NCBI RefSeq assembly: GCF_900111835.1 | Contig: NZ_FOJP01000017.1 | Span: 1 to 64,000 of the forward strand | Direction: 5' to 3' | Source of the DNA: Metapseudomonas otitidis | Lineage (GTDB): Bacteria > Pseudomonadota > Gammaproteobacteria > Pseudomonadales > Pseudomonadaceae | Length of the DNA: 64,000 nucleotides | Shown here: positions 1-53,936 of the stretch, in pieces | How the letters are laid out: each line of letters opens with the position of its first letter | Numbering within the stretch: position 1 is the stretch's first letter | Translations under genes and position numbers: made by a program | The notes under the pieces: model-generated | What the model saw: the letters and a program-made list of their open reading frames with translations, nothing else | Told to the model about the DNA's origin: nothing | Databases searched by the model: none

Positions 1-578
1 ATGCCCTACAGAAGCAGGCAGGACAAGCAGAGTTAATTGAGCAAGATTGGGCTGCTCGTGGCGAGCATATCGAGCATCTAGCCCAAACTATCGACACTCT
101 ACGGAATGCCCTACAGAAGCAGACAGGACAAACAGAGTTAATTACGCAAGATTGGGCTGCTCGTGGCGAGCACATCGAGCATCTAGCCCAAACTATCGAC
201 GTTCTACGGGATGCCCTACAGAAGCAGACAGGACAAGCAGAGTTAGTTGCGCAAGATTGGGCTGCTCGTGGCGAGCATATTGACCATCTAAGCCAAACTA
301 TTGAGGCTCTCCGAGAGGCCTCACAGAAGCAGGCGGGACAGGCAGAGATAATTGCGCAAGATTGGGCTGCTCGTGGCGAGCATATCGAGCATCTAACCCA
401 AACTATTGAGGCTCTCCGAGAGGCCTCAAAGAAGCAGGCAGAACAAGCAGAGATAATTGCGCAAGATTGGGCTGCTCGTGGTGAGTGTATTAGTCAGCTT
501 GAGCGAGAGCTGAGTGAACTAAAAGAATCTTGGTGTATAAAATTCAGCCGCATCGCAGGCAAATTAAGTAATCAGTAA
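1..578 (+). CDS. 3' end of a gene for a coiled-coil repeat protein (partial; 5' end outside window)
   Basis: An open frame enters at the window edge (first full codon at base 3), has no start codon in the window and ends with TAA at 576-578. It encodes about 190 residues with five copies of a 35-residue unit containing DWAARGE, followed by a diverged tail ending KLSNQ. Hydrophobic residues in each unit fall in a 3-4-3-4 pattern and 35 is five heptads, so the copies stack in register as one continuous coiled coil. No catalytic domain is visible here; any enzymatic part lies upstream. The sugar-modifying operon starts only 17 bases downstream, so it probably belongs to the same glycan locus. 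In E. coli O9a the methyltransferase/kinase WbdD uses a coiled coil as an O-antigen length ruler; a similar role is an inference only. Confidence 0.8.
   Translation, partial: ALQKQAGQAELIEQDWAARGEHIEHLAQTIDTLRNALQKQTGQTELITQDWAARGEHIEHLAQTIDVLRDALQKQTGQAELVAQDWAARGEHIDHLSQTIEALREASQKQAGQAEIIAQDWAARGEHIEHLTQTIEALREASKKQAEQAEIIAQDWAARGECISQLERELSELKESWCIKFSRIAGKLSNQ
24..500 (+). repeat. 105-bp in-frame tandem repeat, about five copies
   Basis: The block GATTGGGCTGCTCGTGG recurs at 45, 150, 255, 360 and 465, an exact spacing of 105 bases each time. The copies are near identical at DNA level. Unit length is a multiple of three and of seven codons (35 codons, five heptads), so gain or loss of a unit would keep both the reading frame and the heptad register. 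Confidence 0.93.
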
Positions 579-595
579 CTTTAGGTTGTCCGCTA

Positions 596-1681
596 ATGAA
601 TATTACAGTCACAAAACCTTTCATGCCTCCATACTCAGAGTTTGAGCATTACTTATCCGGTATTTGGGAGCGGGAGTGGTTGACCAACAACGGTCCCTTA
701 TTGAATGAACTAGAAATTAAACTTAAGGAACACCTCGACGTCGATCATCTTCTATTCTTAGGCAACGGCACCATCGCCATCCAGATCGCAATCCGCGCTC
801 TGGGCCTTGAAGGCGAAATCATCACCACGCCATTCAGCTATGTTGCGACCACCTCGAGTATCACATGGGAACATTGCCAGCCAATCATGGTTGATATTCG
901 TCCGGATACGCTGAATATTGACGAATCCAAAATCGAGGACGCTATAACTAGAAATACCACCGCCATTCTGGCCACTCATGTTTTTGGGAATCCTTGCAAT
1001 GTAGAGGCCATTGGTGCCATTGCTCGCAAACACAATCTGAAGGTTATCTACGATGCAGCCCATGCTTTTGGTACAAAGTATAAGGGCAAGTCGCTTCTTT
1101 CTTATGGTGATGTTTCAACTTGTAGCTTTCACTCGACCAAGCTTTTTCATACCGTAGAGGGTGGCTCGGTGATTACTCCCGATCCAGAAATCTCCAAGCG
1201 TATGGCGATGATGCGTAACTTTGGGCACACATCTGCCACCGAGTTTGGTGATGTCGGTATCAACGGCAAAAATTCTGAGTTCCATGCAGCGATGGGGCTG
1301 TGTAATTTCAAGTACATTCAAGACATCTTGGCGATGCGCCGTAGGCTGTCCGAGCGCTACATGAGTAATCTGGAGGGCTTACCGGTACAATTCCAGCAGA
1401 TCCTGCCATATACAGAATATAACCACGCCTACTTCCCAGTGATTTTCGATAGCGAAGACACTCTGCTGAGGTTGGTTAAGCAGCTTAACCTAAATAGTAT
1501 TTTTCCTCGCCGCTATTTCTACCCGTCGCTCTCTATGCTGCCTTACGTACGTGAGCAGAGCGCCCCCATCGCCGAAAACATTTCACGGCGTATTCTCTGC
1601 CTACCGCTGTACCATACGTTGTCCGTCGAAGAAATCGATATGATCTGCCGCTTCGTCAAACGAGAGTTGCTCCATGTTTGA
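596..1681 (+). CDS. vioA: DegT/DnrJ/EryC1/StrS-family sugar aminotransferase, VioA-like
   Basis: A PLP-dependent aminotransferase of 361 residues, the usual family size. It probably converts a dTDP-4-keto-6-deoxy sugar to dTDP-4-amino-4,6-dideoxyglucose (viosamine). The opening MNITVTKPFMPP, the LGNGT phosphate-binding turn near residue 55, YDAAHAFG (Asp153 stacks on the cofactor) and SFHSTK with the Schiff-base Lys182 are all present. The start at 596 gives the conserved N-terminus. The stop overlaps the next gene by 8 bases, so translation is coupled. The nearby NeuD/VioB-like acetyltransferase (5541) supports an N-acetylated 4-amino sugar. Its substrate would need RmlA and RmlB, which are not in this window. 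A 3-amino specificity (FdtB-like) cannot be excluded. Confidence 0.85.
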   Translation: MNITVTKPFMPPYSEFEHYLSGIWEREWLTNNGPLLNELEIKLKEHLDVDHLLFLGNGTIAIQIAIRALGLEGEIITTPFSYVATTSSITWEHCQPIMVDIRPDTLNIDESKIEDAITRNTTAILATHVFGNPCNVEAIGAIARKHNLKVIYDAAHAFGTKYKGKSLLSYGDVSTCSFHSTKLFHTVEGGSVITPDPEISKRMAMMRNFGHTSATEFGDVGINGKNSEFHAAMGLCNFKYIQDILAMRRRLSERYMSNLEGLPVQFQQILPYTEYNHAYFPVIFDSEDTLLRLVKQLNLNSIFPRRYFYPSLSMLPYVREQSAPIAENISRRILCLPLYHTLSVEEIDMICRFVKRELLHV

Positions 1682-46780: not shown

Positions 46781-46971
46781 TGAGAAAAAACACACCTGTA
46801 AGCAACGGAAGAACCGGCCGGCAAGGGCCCGGCCGGGCAAAAGAGCGGCGCATTATAAACACCGGCCCGCGCCGGCCAGGGAACCGTTGGGGGAAAAATC
46901 TGCTAACAATGGACGGGCCGCCGCACCGGTGGCCTGAGCGATAATGCCGCGCCGAAGAATCTGGAGTGACC

Positions 46972-47703
46972 ATGAGCAGCATCCCCAACGCCGAGGGTGA
47001 AAAGATCCTGATCGTCGACGACGACGCGCGCCTGCGCCGTCTGCTCGAACGCTTCTTCGAGGAACAGGGCTACCGCGTGCGCGCGGTGGAAAACGTCGAG
47101 CAGATGGACCGCCTGCTGGCCCGCGAGCTCTTCCACCTGCTGGTGCTGGACCTGATGCTGCCTGGCGAGGACGGCCTCTCCGCCTGCCGCCGCCTGCGCG
47201 CCTCGAACAACCAGGTGCCGATCATCATGCTCACCGCCAAGGGCGACGAATCCAGCCGCATCCAGGGCCTGGAGCTGGGCGCCGACGACTACCTGGCCAA
47301 GCCCTTCAACCCGCGCGAGCTGCTGGCCCGGGTCAAGGCCGTGCTGCGCCGCCAGGCGCCCCAGGTGCCGGGCGCGCCGTCCAGCGAGGACGAGGTGGTC
47401 AGCTTCGGCGAGTACGAGCTGTCCCTGGCCACCCGCGAGCTCAAGCGCGGCGATGACGTGCACATGCTCACCACCGGCGAGTTCGCCGTGCTCAAGGCCC
47501 TGGTCCAGCACGCCCGCGAACCGCTGACCCGCGACAAGCTGATGAACCTGGCCCGTGGCCGCGAGTGGGACGCCCTGGAGCGCTCCATCGACGTGCAGAT
47601 CTCGCGCCTGCGCCGGCTGATCGAACCCGACCCGTCCAAGCCGCGCTACATCCAGACCGTCTGGGGCGTCGGCTACGTCTTCGTGCCGGACGGCAACAAG
47701 TGA
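46972..47703 (+). CDS. amgR: OmpR/AmgR-type response regulator
   Basis: A 243-residue response regulator. The receiver domain has Asp16-Asp18 and phospho-Asp60 (VLDLMLPGEDG); a winged-helix DNA-binding domain follows (TTGEFAVLKALVQHAREPLTRDKLM...WDALERSIDVQISRLRRLIE...YIQTVWGVGYVF). GGAG (46963-46966) sets the start at 46972 rather than the GTG six bases earlier. It works with the kinase 57 bases downstream. In P. aeruginosa this pair (AmgRS, OmpR/EnvZ) controls membrane stress and aminoglycoside tolerance. Confidence 0.93.
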   Translation: MSSIPNAEGEKILIVDDDARLRRLLERFFEEQGYRVRAVENVEQMDRLLARELFHLLVLDLMLPGEDGLSACRRLRASNNQVPIIMLTAKGDESSRIQGLELGADDYLAKPFNPRELLARVKAVLRRQAPQVPGAPSSEDEVVSFGEYELSLATRELKRGDDVHMLTTGEFAVLKALVQHAREPLTRDKLMNLARGREWDALERSIDVQISRLRRLIEPDPSKPRYIQTVWGVGYVFVPDGNK

Positions 47704-47759
47704 ACCTTCCCGCCGCGCGCCCCCCGCGCGGCACGTCCGCCCCCGGCACCCGCCCGCCC

Positions 47760-49073
47760 ATGAAAGCGCCCTACTGGTTCCCGCAGAGCTTCTTCTCCCG
47801 CACCCTCTGGCTGGTGCTCATCGTCGTGCTGTTCTCCAAGGCGCTGACCCTGGTGTACCTGATGATGAACGAGGACGTGCTGGTGGACCGCCAGTACAGC
47901 CACGGCGCGGCGCTGACCCTGCGTGCCTACTGGGCCGCCAGCGAGGGCGAGCGCGACCAGCTGGCCCGCGCCGCCGGCCTGGCCCGGGTGAGCCAGGAGG
48001 ACGTGCCACAGACAGAACAGCACTGGCCCTACAGCGAGATCTTCGAACGGCAGATGCAGACCGAACTGGGCCCGCAGACCGAAGTCCGCCTGCGCGCCAA
48101 GAGCCCGCCGGCGCTCTGGGTCCATGCTCCCAGCCTCGGCCCGGACTGGGTGCGCATCCCGCTCTACCCGCACCCGCTGCGCGGCCAGCGCATCTGGAGC
48201 GTGCTCGGCTGGTTCCTCGGCATCGGCCTGCTGTCCACCGCCGCCGCCTGGATCTTCGTGCGCCAGCTCAACGCCCCGCTCAAGCGCCTGGTGTTCGCCG
48301 CCCGCCACCTCGGCCAGGGCCGCAGCGTGCGCCTGCCGGTGAGCGACACGCCCAGCGAGATGACCGAGGTGTACCGCGCCTTCAACCAGATGGCCGAGGA
48401 CGTCGAGCAGGCCGCCCGCGAGCGCGAGCTGATGCTGGCCGGCGTCTCCCATGACCTGCGCACGCCGCTGACCCGCCTGCGGCTGTCCCTGGAGCTGATG
48501 AGCGCCGACTCGGAGCTGACCGAGGACATGGTCCGCGACATCGAGGACATGGACGCCATCCTCGACCAGTTCCTCGCCTTCATCCGCGATGGCCGCGACG
48601 AACGCGTGGAGGAAATGGACCTGGGCGAACTGGTGCGCGAGGTGGTGGCGCCCTACAACCAGCAGGAGGAACAGGTGCGCCTGTGCCTGGAGCCGGTGCC
48701 GCCGGTACCGCTGCGCCGGGTGTCGATGAAGCGCCTGCTCGCCAACCTCATCGAGAACGCCCTGCGCTACGGCAACAACGGCGTGGAAGTGGCGGCCTAC
48801 GTGGCCGGCGACCACGCTGCGCCCTACGTGGTGCTGAGCGTGCTGGACCGCGGCCAGGGCATCGACCCGGCCGAGCTGGGCGACATCTTCAACCCCTTCA
48901 TCCGCGGCGACCGCGCCCGGGGCGGCAAGGGCACCGGCCTGGGGCTGGCCATCGTGAAGCGCATCGCCGCCCAGCACGGCGGCAGCGTCGAGCTGCGCAA
49001 CCGCTCCGGCGGCGGCCTGGAAGCCCGCGTCTGCCTGCCCCTGGGGCTGCTGCTGCCGCGCGACGCAGCCTGA
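47760..49073 (+). CDS. amgS: EnvZ/AmgS-type sensor histidine kinase
   Basis: A 437-residue inner-membrane kinase. Two helices (about 14-36 and 147-168) flank a periplasmic domain of about 110 residues. HAMP is next (LNAPLKRLVFAARHLGQG), then the H-box GVSHDLRTPLTRLRL with His231 and an ATPase domain (N box LIENALRYGNN, DRGQGI, GLGLAIV). It starts with ATG at 47760; an open frame extending back into amgR is ignored. Same transcript as amgR. Confidence 0.93.
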   Translation: MKAPYWFPQSFFSRTLWLVLIVVLFSKALTLVYLMMNEDVLVDRQYSHGAALTLRAYWAASEGERDQLARAAGLARVSQEDVPQTEQHWPYSEIFERQMQTELGPQTEVRLRAKSPPALWVHAPSLGPDWVRIPLYPHPLRGQRIWSVLGWFLGIGLLSTAAAWIFVRQLNAPLKRLVFAARHLGQGRSVRLPVSDTPSEMTEVYRAFNQMAEDVEQAARERELMLAGVSHDLRTPLTRLRLSLELMSADSELTEDMVRDIEDMDAILDQFLAFIRDGRDERVEEMDLGELVREVVAPYNQQEEQVRLCLEPVPPVPLRRVSMKRLLANLIENALRYGNNGVEVAAYVAGDHAAPYVVLSVLDRGQGIDPAELGDIFNPFIRGDRARGGKGTGLGLAIVKRIAAQHGGSVELRNRSGGGLEARVCLPLGLLLPRDAA

Positions 49074-49235: not shown

Positions 49236-52200
49236 ATGCCCGACGCCCACGCCCTTGCGCCCCGATGGACCTGGTGGGTGCCCTTGCCCCTGCTGCACCT
49301 GGCCACCTGGATGTCGCTGGGCACCCAGATTTCGGGCGGTGTCGCGCTCTGGTACCTGCCATTCGCCCTCGGCCTGGTGCTGACCCTCTGGTGGGGCCCC
49401 CGGGTACTGGCCAGCGTCTACCTCAACGCCCTCGCGAGCATCCCGCTGTGGGGGCTGGACTGGCACCTGGCACCGTTTTACGCCCTGCCCGAAACCCTCT
49501 CCATCGGCGTCGCCTGGCTGCTGTTGCGCCGGCACCAGGCCGAGGCCGGCCTGCCGGACTTCGCCAGCCTGCTGCGCTTCATGCTGCTGGGCGTGCTGGT
49601 GCCGGTGACCCTGGTCAGCCTCGGCGTCCAGGCCAGCCTGCTGGCCACCAGCGTCATCACCCGCCAGGCCTGGCTGCTGGCCAGCCTGCAGATGTGGATG
49701 GGCGACAGCCTCACCACCCTGGTGCTGAGCCTGCCGCTGCTGGTCTACGGCACCCCCTGGCTGCGCCGCAACGGCTGGGCGCTCGGCGTCTACGAGCCGC
49801 TGCCGGAGGCCATCCGCCGCCTGCCGCCCTGGCCCGTCCTGCTGCTGCCGGCGGTGGCCTTGCCACTGCTGATGGCGGTGATGCCGCTGCCCATGACCCT
49901 GCCGGTGATCGGCCTGGCGATCCTCGGCCTGGCCCTCGGCTGGGGCTTCAGCGGCGCACTCTGGGGCGCGGTGGTCACCACCATCAGCGTGCTGGCGCTG
50001 CCGGCCCTGCGCGAGCTCGGCGAGGCCAGCCAGTGGCTGGAGACGCGGCGCATCGAGCTGCAGTTCAGCGTGTTGCTGCTGATGGTCTCCGCCCTGCTGG
50101 TGGGCCGCAGCCTCAGCGACCTGCGCCTGAACCTGCGGCGCCGCGCCGAGATGCAGCGCGAGCTGGCCATGACCAGCCTGGCCATGGAGGCGACCCCGCT
50201 GGGCGTCACCATCGCCGATGCCCGTGACCCCGACTTCCCGCTGATCTACTGCAACAGCGCCTTCGAGCGCATCACCGGCTACCGCCGCGAAGATGCCCTC
50301 GGCCGCAACTGCCGCTTCCTCGTCGGGCACGACCGCAACCAGCCCGCCCTGCGGTACCTGCGCGCCGCCATCGAGCAGGGCAAGCCGACCCAGGCGATCC
50401 TGCGCAACTACCGCAAGGACGGCAGCCTGTTCTGGAACGAGGTGACCCTGGCGCCGATGCGCGACGGCGAGGGCATCAGCCACTTCGTCGCCCTGCAGCA
50501 CGACGTCAGCACCCGCGAGCTGCTGGCCGAGGAGCTGGCCATGCGCCGCGAGGAACTGCTGCGCCAGACCCACCTGCTGAGCCAGACCGAAGCCATCGCC
50601 GACCTCGGCGGCTGGGTGCTGCAGCTGCCGGCACGCACGCTGTTCTGGAGCGAGGGCACCTTCCGCATCTTCGACCTCGACCCCGCCGACGGCGCCCCCA
50701 GCTTCGAACGGGTGCTGGAGTTCTTCGACGCCGCCAGCCGCCAGCAGGCCGAAGCCACCCTGCAGCGGGTGCAGGAGACCGGCACCCCCTTCGACCTGGA
50801 GCTGCGCATCACCAGCGCCAAGGGCATTCCGCGCACCCTGCGCTTCAAGGGCCTGGCCGAGAGCGACGGCGACCAGGTGATGCGCATCTACGGTGCGGTG
50901 CAGGATCTCACCGAGCAGAAGCGCACCGAACGCCGCCAGCGCGAGCGCGACGAGCACCTGCACCTGTTCTTCGAAGCCCCGCTGATGGGCATGGCCCTGT
51001 GCTCGCCGGAACAGGGCTGGCAGGAAGTGAACTTCAAGCTGTGCAGCATCCTCGGGCGCTCCCGCGAGCAGTTGCAGGGCCACGACTGGATGAGCATCAC
51101 CCACCCGGACGACCGCCCCCAGGAAAGCGAGCTGCTGGTGGAGCTGCGCCAGGGCCTGCGCGACGGCTACGAACTGGACAAGCGCTTCCTGCGCCCGGAC
51201 GGCAGCGCGGTGGACACCCGCGTCAACGTCCGTGGCGTGCGCGATGCCGAGGGCCGGCTGTACGCCCTGCTGATCCTGGTGGAGGACGTCAGCGCCCGGC
51301 GCGAGGCCGAGGACCGCTACCGCGTGCTGGTGGAACACGCCCCCGAGGCGATCCTGGTGTTCGACCTGGAACGCGGCATCACCGATGCAAACGAGAACGC
51401 CGCGCGGCTCTACGGCCTGCCCCGCGAGCAGCTGCTCGGGCGCATGCCCGACAGCTTCAGCCCGCCCTACCAGGCCGACGGGCGCAGCTCCCAGGAGGTC
51501 GGCCGCGCCCACGCCCGCGCCGCCCTGGCCGGCGAAGCGCCGCTTTTCGAGTGGCTGATGCGCGACTTCGCCGGGCGCGTGCGCCCCTGCGAGGTGCGTC
51601 TGGTGCGCCTGCCGGGCCGCGACCGGCAGTTGATCCGCCTGAGCATCACCGACATCTCCGAGCGCCAGCGCTACCAGCGCGAGATCGAGCGCCTGGCCTA
51701 CAGCGACGAACTCACCGGCCTGCCCAACCGCCGCCTGCTGCTGGACCGCCTGCAGCACGCCATGGCCCGCGAGGTTCGCGACAGCCGCTTCGGTGCGTTG
51801 CTGTTCATCGACCTGGACCACTTCAAGACCGTCAACGACAGCCTCGGCCACCCGGTGGGCGACGCCCTGCTGCGGGAGGTCACCGCTCGCCTGGCCGGAT
51901 GCCTGCGCGCCGAGGACACCTTGGCGCGGCTGGGCGGCGACGAGTTCGTGGTGCTGTTGGAGGCCCTGGCACCGGAGGCCGACGGTGCGGCCGACCACGC
52001 CGCCGAGGTGGGCGCCAAGCTGCTGCAGAGCCTGCGCGGCAGCTACCGCGTGGGCGAGCATGAGCTGGCGGTCAGCGCCAGCATCGGCATCGCCCTGCAT
52101 CCCTTCGACGGCCAGGGCGCCGCCGACGTGCTCAAGCAGGCCGACACCGCCATGTACCGGGCCAAGCAGGGCGGGCGCAATGCGCTGCACTTCTTCGCCC

Positions 52201-53012
52201 CGGCCATGCAGGCCGCCATCGACCAGCGCCTGCAACTACAGAGCGACCTGCGCCAGGCCCTGGCGCGGGGCCAGCTGTTCCTGGAATTCCAGCCGCAGCT
52301 GGAACTGGCCGGCGGCCAGGTGGTGGGCGCCGAGGCGCTGCTGCGCTGGCGCACGCCCAGCCGCGGCGTGGTGTCACCGGCGCAGTTCATCCCCCTGGCG
52401 GAAGAGACCGGTCTGATCCTCGAACTGGGCAACTGGGTGCTGGATCAGGCCTGCGCCAACCTCGCCCAGTGGCTGCCGCACCGGCCCGCCCTGGTGCTGG
52501 CGATCAACATCAGCCCCCGCGACCTGCGACAGCCGGACTTCGTCGAGCGGGTCCGCGACTGCCTGCAACGTCACGGCGTACCGGCCCATGCGCTGGAGCT
52601 GGAGATCACCGAAGGCAGCCTGATGGAGGACGTGGAACGCTGCATCGCCGCCATGCTGGAGCTGAAGCAGCTGGGGGTGCGCTTCGCCATCGACGACTTC
52701 GGCACCGGCTACTCCTCGCTGATCTACCTCAAGCGCCTGCCGCTGGACCGGCTGAAGATCGACCGCAGCTTCGTCGAGGGGCTGGAGCAAGAGGGCAGCG
52801 ACGCGGCACTGGTGGAGACCATTCTCGCCATCGGCCGCAACCTGGGCCTGGAATGCGTGGCCGAAGGCATCGAGGCGGACGCCCAGTACCAGTCCCTGCG
52901 CCGTCTGGGCTGTGCCCTGGGCCAGGGCTTTCACATCAGCGAGCCGCTGGACGGGCCGGCCTTCCTGGCCTGGCTGCAGCGCCGCGAGCGCGCCCTGGCC
53001 GACTCGGCCTGA
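49236..53012 (+). CDS. MASE1-LOV-PAS-GGDEF-EAL c-di-GMP enzyme, likely blue-light sensor
   Basis: A 1258-residue membrane protein. Residues about 10-300 form a MASE1-like multi-helix sensor. A PAS domain near 320-430 has the full LOV signature: GRNCRFL with adduct Cys359, then Asn391 (NYRKDG), Asn401 (FWN) and Gln421 (ALQHD). Their spacing matches plant phototropin LOV2. Three more PAS domains (about 450-815) precede a GGDEF domain (motif 900-904, with an RAED inhibitory site exactly five residues before it) and an EAL domain (EALLRW at 1033, DDFGTGYSS present). Both catalytic halves look intact. It stands alone, convergent with rimK. Net output (making or breaking c-di-GMP) cannot be read from the sequence. 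Confidence 0.9.
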   Translation: MPDAHALAPRWTWWVPLPLLHLATWMSLGTQISGGVALWYLPFALGLVLTLWWGPRVLASVYLNALASIPLWGLDWHLAPFYALPETLSIGVAWLLLRRHQAEAGLPDFASLLRFMLLGVLVPVTLVSLGVQASLLATSVITRQAWLLASLQMWMGDSLTTLVLSLPLLVYGTPWLRRNGWALGVYEPLPEAIRRLPPWPVLLLPAVALPLLMAVMPLPMTLPVIGLAILGLALGWGFSGALWGAVVTTISVLALPALRELGEASQWLETRRIELQFSVLLLMVSALLVGRSLSDLRLNLRRRAEMQRELAMTSLAMEATPLGVTIADARDPDFPLIYCNSAFERITGYRREDALGRNCRFLVGHDRNQPALRYLRAAIEQGKPTQAILRNYRKDGSLFWNEVTLAPMRDGEGISHFVALQHDVSTRELLAEELAMRREELLRQTHLLSQTEAIADLGGWVLQLPARTLFWSEGTFRIFDLDPADGAPSFERVLEFFDAASRQQAEATLQRVQETGTPFDLELRITSAKGIPRTLRFKGLAESDGDQVMRIYGAVQDLTEQKRTERRQRERDEHLHLFFEAPLMGMALCSPEQGWQEVNFKLCSILGRSREQLQGHDWMSITHPDDRPQESELLVELRQGLRDGYELDKRFLRPDGSAVDTRVNVRGVRDAEGRLYALLILVEDVSARREAEDRYRVLVEHAPEAILVFDLERGITDANENAARLYGLPREQLLGRMPDSFSPPYQADGRSSQEVGRAHARAALAGEAPLFEWLMRDFAGRVRPCEVRLVRLPGRDRQLIRLSITDISERQRYQREIERLAYSDELTGLPNRRLLLDRLQHAMAREVRDSRFGALLFIDLDHFKTVNDSLGHPVGDALLREVTARLAGCLRAEDTLARLGGDEFVVLLEALAPEADGAADHAAEVGAKLLQSLRGSYRVGEHELAVSASIGIALHPFDGQGAADVLKQADTAMYRAKQGGRNALHFFAPAMQAAIDQRLQLQSDLRQALARGQLFLEFQPQLELAGGQVVGAEALLRWRTPSRGVVSPAQFIPLAEETGLILELGNWVLDQACANLAQWLPHRPALVLAINISPRDLRQPDFVERVRDCLQRHGVPAHALELEITEGSLMEDVERCIAAMLELKQLGVRFAIDDFGTGYSSLIYLKRLPLDRLKIDRSFVEGLEQEGSDAALVETILAIGRNLGLECVAEGIEADAQYQSLRRLGCALGQGFHISEPLDGPAFLAWLQRRERALADSA

Positions 53013-53030: not shown

Positions 53031-53936
53031 TCAGCCCTTGCCCTTGGTGCGGGTGAGGTTGGGGCCGGCGTGCTTTTCCAGGTGCTCGATGATGATGCCG
53101 GCGACGTCCTTGCCGGTGGTGGTCTCGATGCCCTCCAGCCCCGGCGAGGAGTTCACCTCCATCACCAGCGGGCCGTGGTTGGAGCGCAGGATGTCCACCC
53201 CGGCCACCGACAGGCCCATGACCTTGGCCGCGCGGATCGCGGTCATGCGCTCCTCGGGGGTGATCTTGATCAGGCTGGCGGTGCCGCCCCGGTGCAGGTT
53301 GGAGCGGAACTCGCCGGGCTTGGCCTGGCGCATCATCGCGGCGATCACCTTGTCGCCCACCACGAAGCAGCGGATGTCGGCGCCACCGGCTTCGCGGATG
53401 TACTCCTGCACCATGATGTTCTGCTTCAACCCCATGAAGGCCTCGATCACCGATTCGGCAGCCTTCTCCGTCTCGCACAGCACCACGCCGATGCCCTGGG
53501 TGCCTTCCAGCACCTTGATCACCAGCGGGGCGCCGTTGACCATGCGGATCAGGTCGGGGATATCGTCCGGCGAGTGGGCGAAGCCGGTCACCGGCAGGCC
53601 GATGCCCTTGCGCGAAAGCAGTTGCAGGGAGCGCAGCTTGTCCCGCGAACGGGAGATGGCGACGGACTCGTTGAGCGGGTAGACCCCCATCATCTCGAAC
53701 TGCCGCAACACGGCGCAGCCGTAGAAGGTGACCGAGGCGCCGATGCGCGGGATCACCGCGTCGAAGCCCTCCAGGGCACGGCCACGGTAGTGGATCTGCG
53801 GCTTGTGGCTGGCGATGTTCATGTAGGCCCGCAGGGTGTCGATGACCACCATCTCGTGACCGCGCTGCTGGCCGGCCTCCACCAGACGACGGGTCGAATA
53901 CAGACGCGGGTTGCGCGACAGCACGGCAATCTTCAT
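53031..53936 (-). CDS. rimK: Ribosomal protein S6-glutamate ligase
   Basis: A 301-residue ATP-grasp ligase that adds glutamates to the C-terminus of ribosomal protein S6. It has [29 protein letters not shown], the ATP-grasp [10 protein letters not shown]...[13 protein letters not shown], and [13 protein letters not shown] with metal ligands. It overlaps rimB by 4 bases (ATGA). In P. fluorescens RimK activity is reported to respond to c-di-GMP and to partner proteins RimA and RimB; a rimA gene is not adjacent here. Confidence 0.95.

Follow-up and report, generated by a model that had tools for sequence, protein, structure and literature searches.

The locus examined here raises the question of whether a membrane-bound GGDEF-EAL protein of Metapseudomonas otitidis is controlled by blue light through its LOV domain, given that most of its closest relatives have replaced the cysteine predicted to form the flavin adduct. 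The gene lies in a stretch of 64,000 nucleotides of contig NZ_FOJP01000017.1, called here the window, and the features discussed are collected in Table 1. Its reading frame is free of internal stops, and a Pfam search of the translation recovered the EAL domain with 256 bits and the GGDEF domain with 163 bits, together with PAS matches. Papers given by PMC number are cited from excerpts.

Table 1. Features of the locus, in positions of the window
Feature	Position	Strand	Remarks
Gene for 1258-aa MASE1-like TM / LOV / PAS-PAS-PAS / GGDEF / EAL protein	49236..53012	+	
N-terminal membrane region, MASE1-like, about 8–10 helices	49281..50168	+	residues 16–311; hydropathy, weak Pfam MASE1
LOV domain	50169..50537	+	residues 312–434; sequence match, predicted fold
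Cys359, predicted flavin-adduct cysteine	50310..50312	+	Cys in 50/121 aligned rows
Arg360 (C+1), phosphate-arginine position, PpSB1 R54	50313..50315	+	
Val363, replaces usual Gln (PpSB1 Q57)	50322..50324	+	
Arg367 (C+8, PpSB1 R61 position)	50334..50336	+	
Arg376 (C+17, PpSB1 R70 position)	50361..50363	+	
Asn391	50406..50408	+	
Asn401	50436..50438	+	
Gln421	50496..50498	+	
Three further PAS domains	50574..51671	+	residues about 447–812, limits approximate; without LOV signature
GGDEF domain	51696..52181	+	residues 821–982; RAED I-site 891–894, GGDEF 900–904
EAL domain	52242..52946	+	residues 1003–1237, catalytic motifs present
ompR-like response regulator, conserved neighbour	46966..47703	+	
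envZ-like histidine kinase, conserved neighbour	47565..49073	+	ORF as listed; true start probably later
rimK-like gene, downstream neighbour	53031..53936	-	start placed from Pfam match

The initial annotation had described a complete LOV photoreceptor signature, and C359, N391, N401 and Q421 are indeed where it put them, with spacings from the cysteine of +32, +42 and +62; in AsLOV2 the residues C450, N482, N492 and Q513 are spaced by +32, +42 and +63 (PMC9098866). It was also right that GRNCRFL is intact with the usual following Gln replaced by Val, since the translation reads GRNCRFLV. In PpSB1-LOV that glutamine, Gln 57, is within hydrogen-bonding distance of the flavin, and four arginines, R70 among them, contact the FMN phosphate (PMC5314338). 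At the corresponding places the window LOV has R360, R367 and R376, and Leu at C+13 where PpSB1 has R66. When the window protein was shuffled 20000 times, a Cys followed by Asn at +32, Asn at +42 and Gln at +61 to +63 arose in 9 of the shuffled sequences. The sequence of the domain matched 160 distinct PDB sequences at E<=0.001, the best being 9vf7 (E 3.5e-35), followed by Pseudomonas short LOVs such as PpSB2-LOV (7a6p, E 9e-31) and PpSB1-LOV (3sw1, E 2.1e-29). The AlphaFold model of residues 300–445 had a pLDDT of 91.1, and its best structure matches, 9vf7 and 7a6p (MrLOV and PpSB2-LOV), gave TM values by query length of 0.76–0.88. The best 50 PDB matches of the model are all LOV proteins. 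Judged by sequence and predicted fold, this is a LOV-type PAS domain with the adduct-cysteine motif, the Asn/Asn/Gln set predicted to hold the flavin ring and phosphate arginines.

A chance match or an ordinary PAS domain can be rejected. Pairwise alignments found the LOV signature in none of the three other PAS domains of the protein, and a chance origin of the signature is discounted because of the strong homology to solved LOV domains. Nor is C359 likely to be a sequencing artefact, since the same cysteine is present in homologues P0001 (98% identical over the search region) and P0002 and in three other genomes of the genus.

The motifs of the enzyme part are intact as well. The I-site and the full EAL set that had been ascribed to the same chain were both found, the stretch from I-site to GGDEF reading RAED-TLARL-GGDEF and the EAL motifs being EALLRW, NISP, EITEG, DDFGTGYSSL, KIDRSF, AEGIE and QGFH, which we take to supply the catalytic residues E, N, E, DD, K, E and Q. 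The GGDEF motif is intact in all 121 aligned rows (the best 120 of 553 homologues plus the window protein). Most of the top NCBIfam hits to the enzyme part were phosphodiesterases, all hits scoring below their own cut-offs, and on this account we lean towards a phosphodiesterase raised by light, with low confidence in the direction; the sequence gives neither the direction nor the size of any light effect.

The N-terminal part, which had been called MASE1, stands as a membrane region, but its identity as MASE1 is weak, at 17.2–17.4 bits for PF05231 against a Pfam cut-off of 29.8. Four of nine orthologous N-termini matched MASE1 at E<=0.1 (best 1.5e-5), and PF05231 is named for 35 of the best 120 of 553 homologues (precomputed Pfam lists, counted by eye). 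The AlphaFold model of this part reached a pLDDT of 69, and a fold search with this low-confidence model gave no PDB match at E<=0.001. Residues 1–312 (49236–50171) of the same weak model gave non-significant Foldseek matches to the ECF transporter S-component 4dve (E 1.0 and 1.3, probability 0.85 and 0.90).

The nearest named relatives of the window protein belong to Metapseudomonas and Pseudomonas species, and their genes lie in similar surroundings. Matches to ompR and envZ were found upstream at all eight named loci (L039–L046) and a rimK match downstream at six; of the other two, L041 stops about 0.3 kb past the gene and L046 has about 3.5 kb of further sequence with no rimK match. An EnvZ match adjoins the gene at 29 of 30 loci (the window and 17 more of the host genus, plus 12 of other genera), L148 being the exception. 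These shared envZ/ompR surroundings led us to treat the compared proteins, so far as the data allowed a check, as orthologues from a single locus; the P proteins come without genomic context. At E<=1e-30 the N-terminal half is present in 52 of 298 genomes of the host family, in 3 of its 19 genera, and together with the LOV domain it is present in all 18 genomes of the host genus. At G008:C1:1870727-1870897 and in L012, about the first 57 residues of the orthologue are in a different frame from the remainder; the break in G008 may be a frameshift, a different start or an assembly error.

It is at residue 359 that the orthologues diverge. In the alignment of 121 rows (a search that returned 553 proteins, of which the best 120 were aligned with the window protein) this position is Cys in 50, Trp in 33, Ser in 23, Leu in 11, Asp in two and Gly in two. 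Within the host genus it is Cys in four of the 18 genomes (that of the window, G007, G008 and G017) and Trp in the remaining 14. When the LOV columns were left out of tree building, the resulting tree required no fewer than seven changes between Cys and non-Cys. Placing all Trp rows in a single lineage was rejected (p-AU 2.6e-8), as was placing all Cys-less rows in one (p-AU 3e-4), in topology tests that used LG+G4 and a quick search and in which two long rows, P0116 and P0071, are unsure in the tree. On the midpoint-rooted tree the changes would be losses of the cysteine rather than gains, because CRFLQ is common to distant LOV domains and to clades on both sides of the root. Repeated loss among such close orthologues argues that adduct chemistry is not what the whole family is kept for.

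Exchange of this cysteine has precedents. Naturally Cys-less LOV-like proteins such as BAT-LOV share the trait seen here in 71 of 121 rows, and about 70 such entries, with Ala, His, Pro and other residues, have been listed (PMC4682037). In the family studied here, unlike in that set, the exchange occurs between orthologues and Trp is the commonest replacement. Among 72 other LOV loci (all of L047–L118), pre-selected by peptide patterns and hence no census, 57 have the Cys, so that natural Cys-less LOV-like domains are not rare. The 15 without it, from other bacteria including Planktothrix and Sulfuricella-type genomes, have Ser (6), Gly (6), Phe (2) or Ala (1), and in the Cys-less loci within L059–L113 (e.g., L059, L063, L065, L073, L074, L086 and L088) the remaining pocket is mostly intact.

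In the window family the rest of the pocket tends to go with the state of the cysteine. Among the 50 Cys rows, N391 and N401 are present in all, Q421 in 48, R360 in 47 and R376 in 45. The three residues N391, N401 and Q421 occur together in 48 of 50 Cys rows vs. 24 of 71 Cys-less rows, and with R360 added the figures are 45 of 50 and 7 of 71. A pocket kept in Cys rows and eroded in Cys-less rows is what would be expected if the former were held as flavin photoreceptors. The erosion takes different forms. The 21 Ser rows that have Asn at 421 keep R360, R376, N391 and N401 without exception, and the two Asp rows keep these and Q421; the two Gly rows and the two remaining Ser rows have mixed pocket residues. 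An acidic residue (Glu or Asp) occupies 376 in all 11 Leu rows, ten of which have lost N391 as well as N401. In the 29 Trp rows outside the genus, Arg360 never occurs, Gln is found at 376 in 25, and N391 and N401 persist in 18 and 25, respectively. The four Trp rows of the genus keep R360, R367, N391, N401 and Q421 with Gln at 376, a combination also found in 14 of 14 Trp species of the genus when the genomes were read. Gln in place of R376 in most rows of both Trp lineages is a hint that FMN was abandoned there or another ligand taken. Residue 376 is Leu in three of the four Cys genomes of the genus, the window having Arg, so that the phosphate cluster appears to be loosening near the window's own clade, and the Gln at 363 is missing in 32 of the 50 Cys rows. 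An independent-pairs test of Cys against the rest of the pocket gave the expected direction and never the opposite, with four pairs on supported branches; allowing for kinship in this way the link has no significance, four pairs being too few to reach it. Within clades, the mean identity of the LOV domain falls inside or close to the span of values of the adjoining PAS domains, with no clearly faster LOV decay in the Trp, Ser or Leu clades. Between the window protein and P0002 the identity is 0.79 for LOV and 0.60, 0.80 and 0.84 for the PAS neighbours.

Several characterized systems resemble the window protein in part. SL2 of Synechococcus elongatus, a LOV-GGDEF-EAL protein and blue-light phosphodiesterase, shares with it the canonical LOV Cys, two FMN-phosphate arginines and GGDEF plus EAL in one chain (PMC8846402); the excerpt names no membrane region or extra PAS for SL2, whereas in the window protein a membrane part precedes the LOV domain and three PAS domains separate it from GGDEF. 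The Mesorhizobium loti protein WP_140774521.1 is a similar LOV-GGDEF-EAL fusion, whose LOV-GGDEF piece is a cyclase repressed by blue light and which has Met for the active-site Gln, where the window has Q421 (PMC9098866). The LadC diguanylate cyclases, one structure of which (8c05) was among the matches of our LOV model, have LOV control of GGDEF in common with the window, but through a short or long helical linker and, in the excerpted text, with neither an EAL nor an interposed PAS mentioned; in the same work two LOV-GGDEF pieces from LOV-GGDEF-EAL proteins gave no light-regulated synthesis, one of them being without conserved GGDEF residues (PMC10396304). RmcA of Pseudomonas aeruginosa, likened to the window protein by its description, combines several PAS domains with GGDEF-EAL, and one of them, the LOV-like flavin domain PASd (the fourth PAS, without the Cys), has been tied to light and biofilm (PMC8846402). 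The short LOVs PpSB1, PpSB2 and PmSB-LOV, the first two among the closest solved structures, stand alone without an enzyme, unlike the window protein. LOV-GGDEF-EAL proteins with light effects, Cys-less LOVs and Gln-less LOVs are thus already known. As far as searches of open-licence PMC papers show, the novelty lies in the repeated replacement of the photoactive Cys within a single orthologous family, at least twice by Trp. Among those papers none dealt with the window gene, and MASE1 and LOV appeared together in a review only, in separate contexts.

On sequence and models, the window protein is best read as a GGDEF-EAL enzyme under blue-light control in which the ancestral photochemistry has been retained. 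We regard it as fairly probable that it sits in the inner membrane and that its LOV domain, on the cytoplasmic side, carries a flavin, probably FMN, with which Cys359 forms an adduct in the light. Blue light would produce the Cys359–flavin adduct, and the resulting change might pass from the C-terminal LOV helix through the PAS-B/C/D relay to GGDEF-EAL and shift the net turnover of c-di-GMP, with breakdown only slightly favoured in what is a guess at direction. The membrane part is probably an anchor or a second input; in the models its last helix (residues 271–311) reaches the start of the LOV domain, where it adjoins the N-terminal LOV helix, so that a membrane signal could use the same relay. 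The clade of the window would then have kept the ancestral photoreceptor while several sister lineages dropped the Cys, and the latter, if they sense through the LOV domain at all, would have to do so by other chemistry (flavin redox or radical) or with another ligand. The light-receptor reading has to contend with Val363 (although most Cys rows share the lack of Gln there), with the loosening phosphate cluster, with the Cys loss tolerated in the family, with the three PAS domains predicted between LOV and enzyme and with the two LOV-GGDEF pieces whose synthesis did not respond to light (PMC10396304). The initial annotation had gone from a complete signature straight to a blue-light switch; the LOV identity and the integrity of the enzyme held, and the switch is plausible, but Val363 and the Cys losses mean that the step outruns the evidence.

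These same observations lend themselves to other explanations. The domain might bind flavin but report mainly the redox state, oxygen or electron flow, and the Cys would be replaceable in sister lineages because the light adduct is a by-product. The at least seven changes of Cys state fit this, as do the 14 Trp species of the genus, where R360, R367, N391, N401 and Q421 suggest a pocket kept without the Cys, the redox and light effects of the Cys-less LOV-like domain of RmcA (PMC8846402) and the ability of Cys-less LOVs to signal via a flavin semiquinone (PMC4682037), a paper that also raises the question of the role of natural Cys-less LOVs and of LOV light sensing arising from flavin redox sensing. 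Yet R376 is Gln in all 14 of those species and in 25 of the 29 other Trp rows, an indole at 359 may leave no room for flavin, and the pocket is nearly invariant in Cys rows; we consider this account unlikely. It seems somewhat less likely again that the LOV domain is photoactive while control of the enzyme rests with the membrane region and the remaining PAS domains, light barely altering c-di-GMP. The long multi-PAS relay, with three domains between LOV and enzyme, and a membrane part that may bring an input of its own would suit such an arrangement, but the listed homologues (the best 120 of 553) have the same kinds of domain and can be aligned over their length, and PAS chains commonly relay signals. 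Least credible to us is that the signature is a relic and that the window LOV, loading little flavin, acts in dimerisation or relay like a common PAS module. There is a precedent in W619_1-LOV, which loads only about 10% flavin despite conserved key residues (PMC5314338), V363 would agree with it, and full pocket decay is seen in relatives, namely the ten Leu rows without N391 and N401. However, C359, R360, R367, R376, N391, N401 and Q421 are all kept in the window protein, and the LOV identities within clades are in or near those of the PAS neighbours.

Beyond the protein of the window, we think it possible, though we would not quite rely on it, that at this envZ-side locus a membrane LOV-GGDEF-EAL receptor switched its input several times with the enzyme intact, Trp (on at least two independent occasions), as well as Ser, Leu, Asp and Gly, having taken the place of Cys, that the Trp lineages left FMN or took another ligand, and that the light role in the genus passed to another LOV-GGDEF-EAL protein. 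The candidate for the last step is a further LOV domain (query from L038, E<=1e-40) found at 22 places in 13 of the 18 genus genomes; all Trp species but G005 have it (13 of 14), and it was found in no Cys species (0 of four). In the 12 of these places that were read (L027–L038, one per genome), CRFLQG, R376, N391 and N401 were present in all and Q421 in 11; eleven source frames are over 1900 aa and that of L033 about 1200 aa. One of these proteins (L167:1115-6886, 1923 aa) has GAF and PAS domains followed by GGDEF, EAL and receiver, the LOV lying directly before GGDEF, and GGDEF and EAL are also present in another (L168:1191-4790, 1199 aa). With species treated as independent, presence of the further LOV protein was associated with the Cys state at p 0.0016 (Fisher test), but in the genus tree the Cys species form one clade and the Trp species another, which makes the association a single contrast that is suggestive only; the light-to-c-di-GMP role may have passed in this way.

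Within one genus, orthologues sharing the same enzyme carry either Cys (four species) or Trp (14 species) at the photoactive position. This makes the family a natural experiment on the loss or replacement of light sensing, and Cys and Trp forms side by side would show what loss of the Cys costs or brings. For annotation the orthologues carry a caution, in that a close relative may have a LOV domain and still not sense light. As a control, the separate short LOV protein of the genus, with the motif DCRFLQ, has lost its Cys in none of the 18 genomes. In the host it lies (L002:1420-1866, minus strand) next to a gene resembling MerR/LitR-type regulators (432-1364, plus strand; a call made by reading the sequence, with no family scan), a pair that resembles PmSB-LOV/PmlR2 of P. 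mendocina, in which PmSB-LOV acts on a LitR regulator (PMC9758184).
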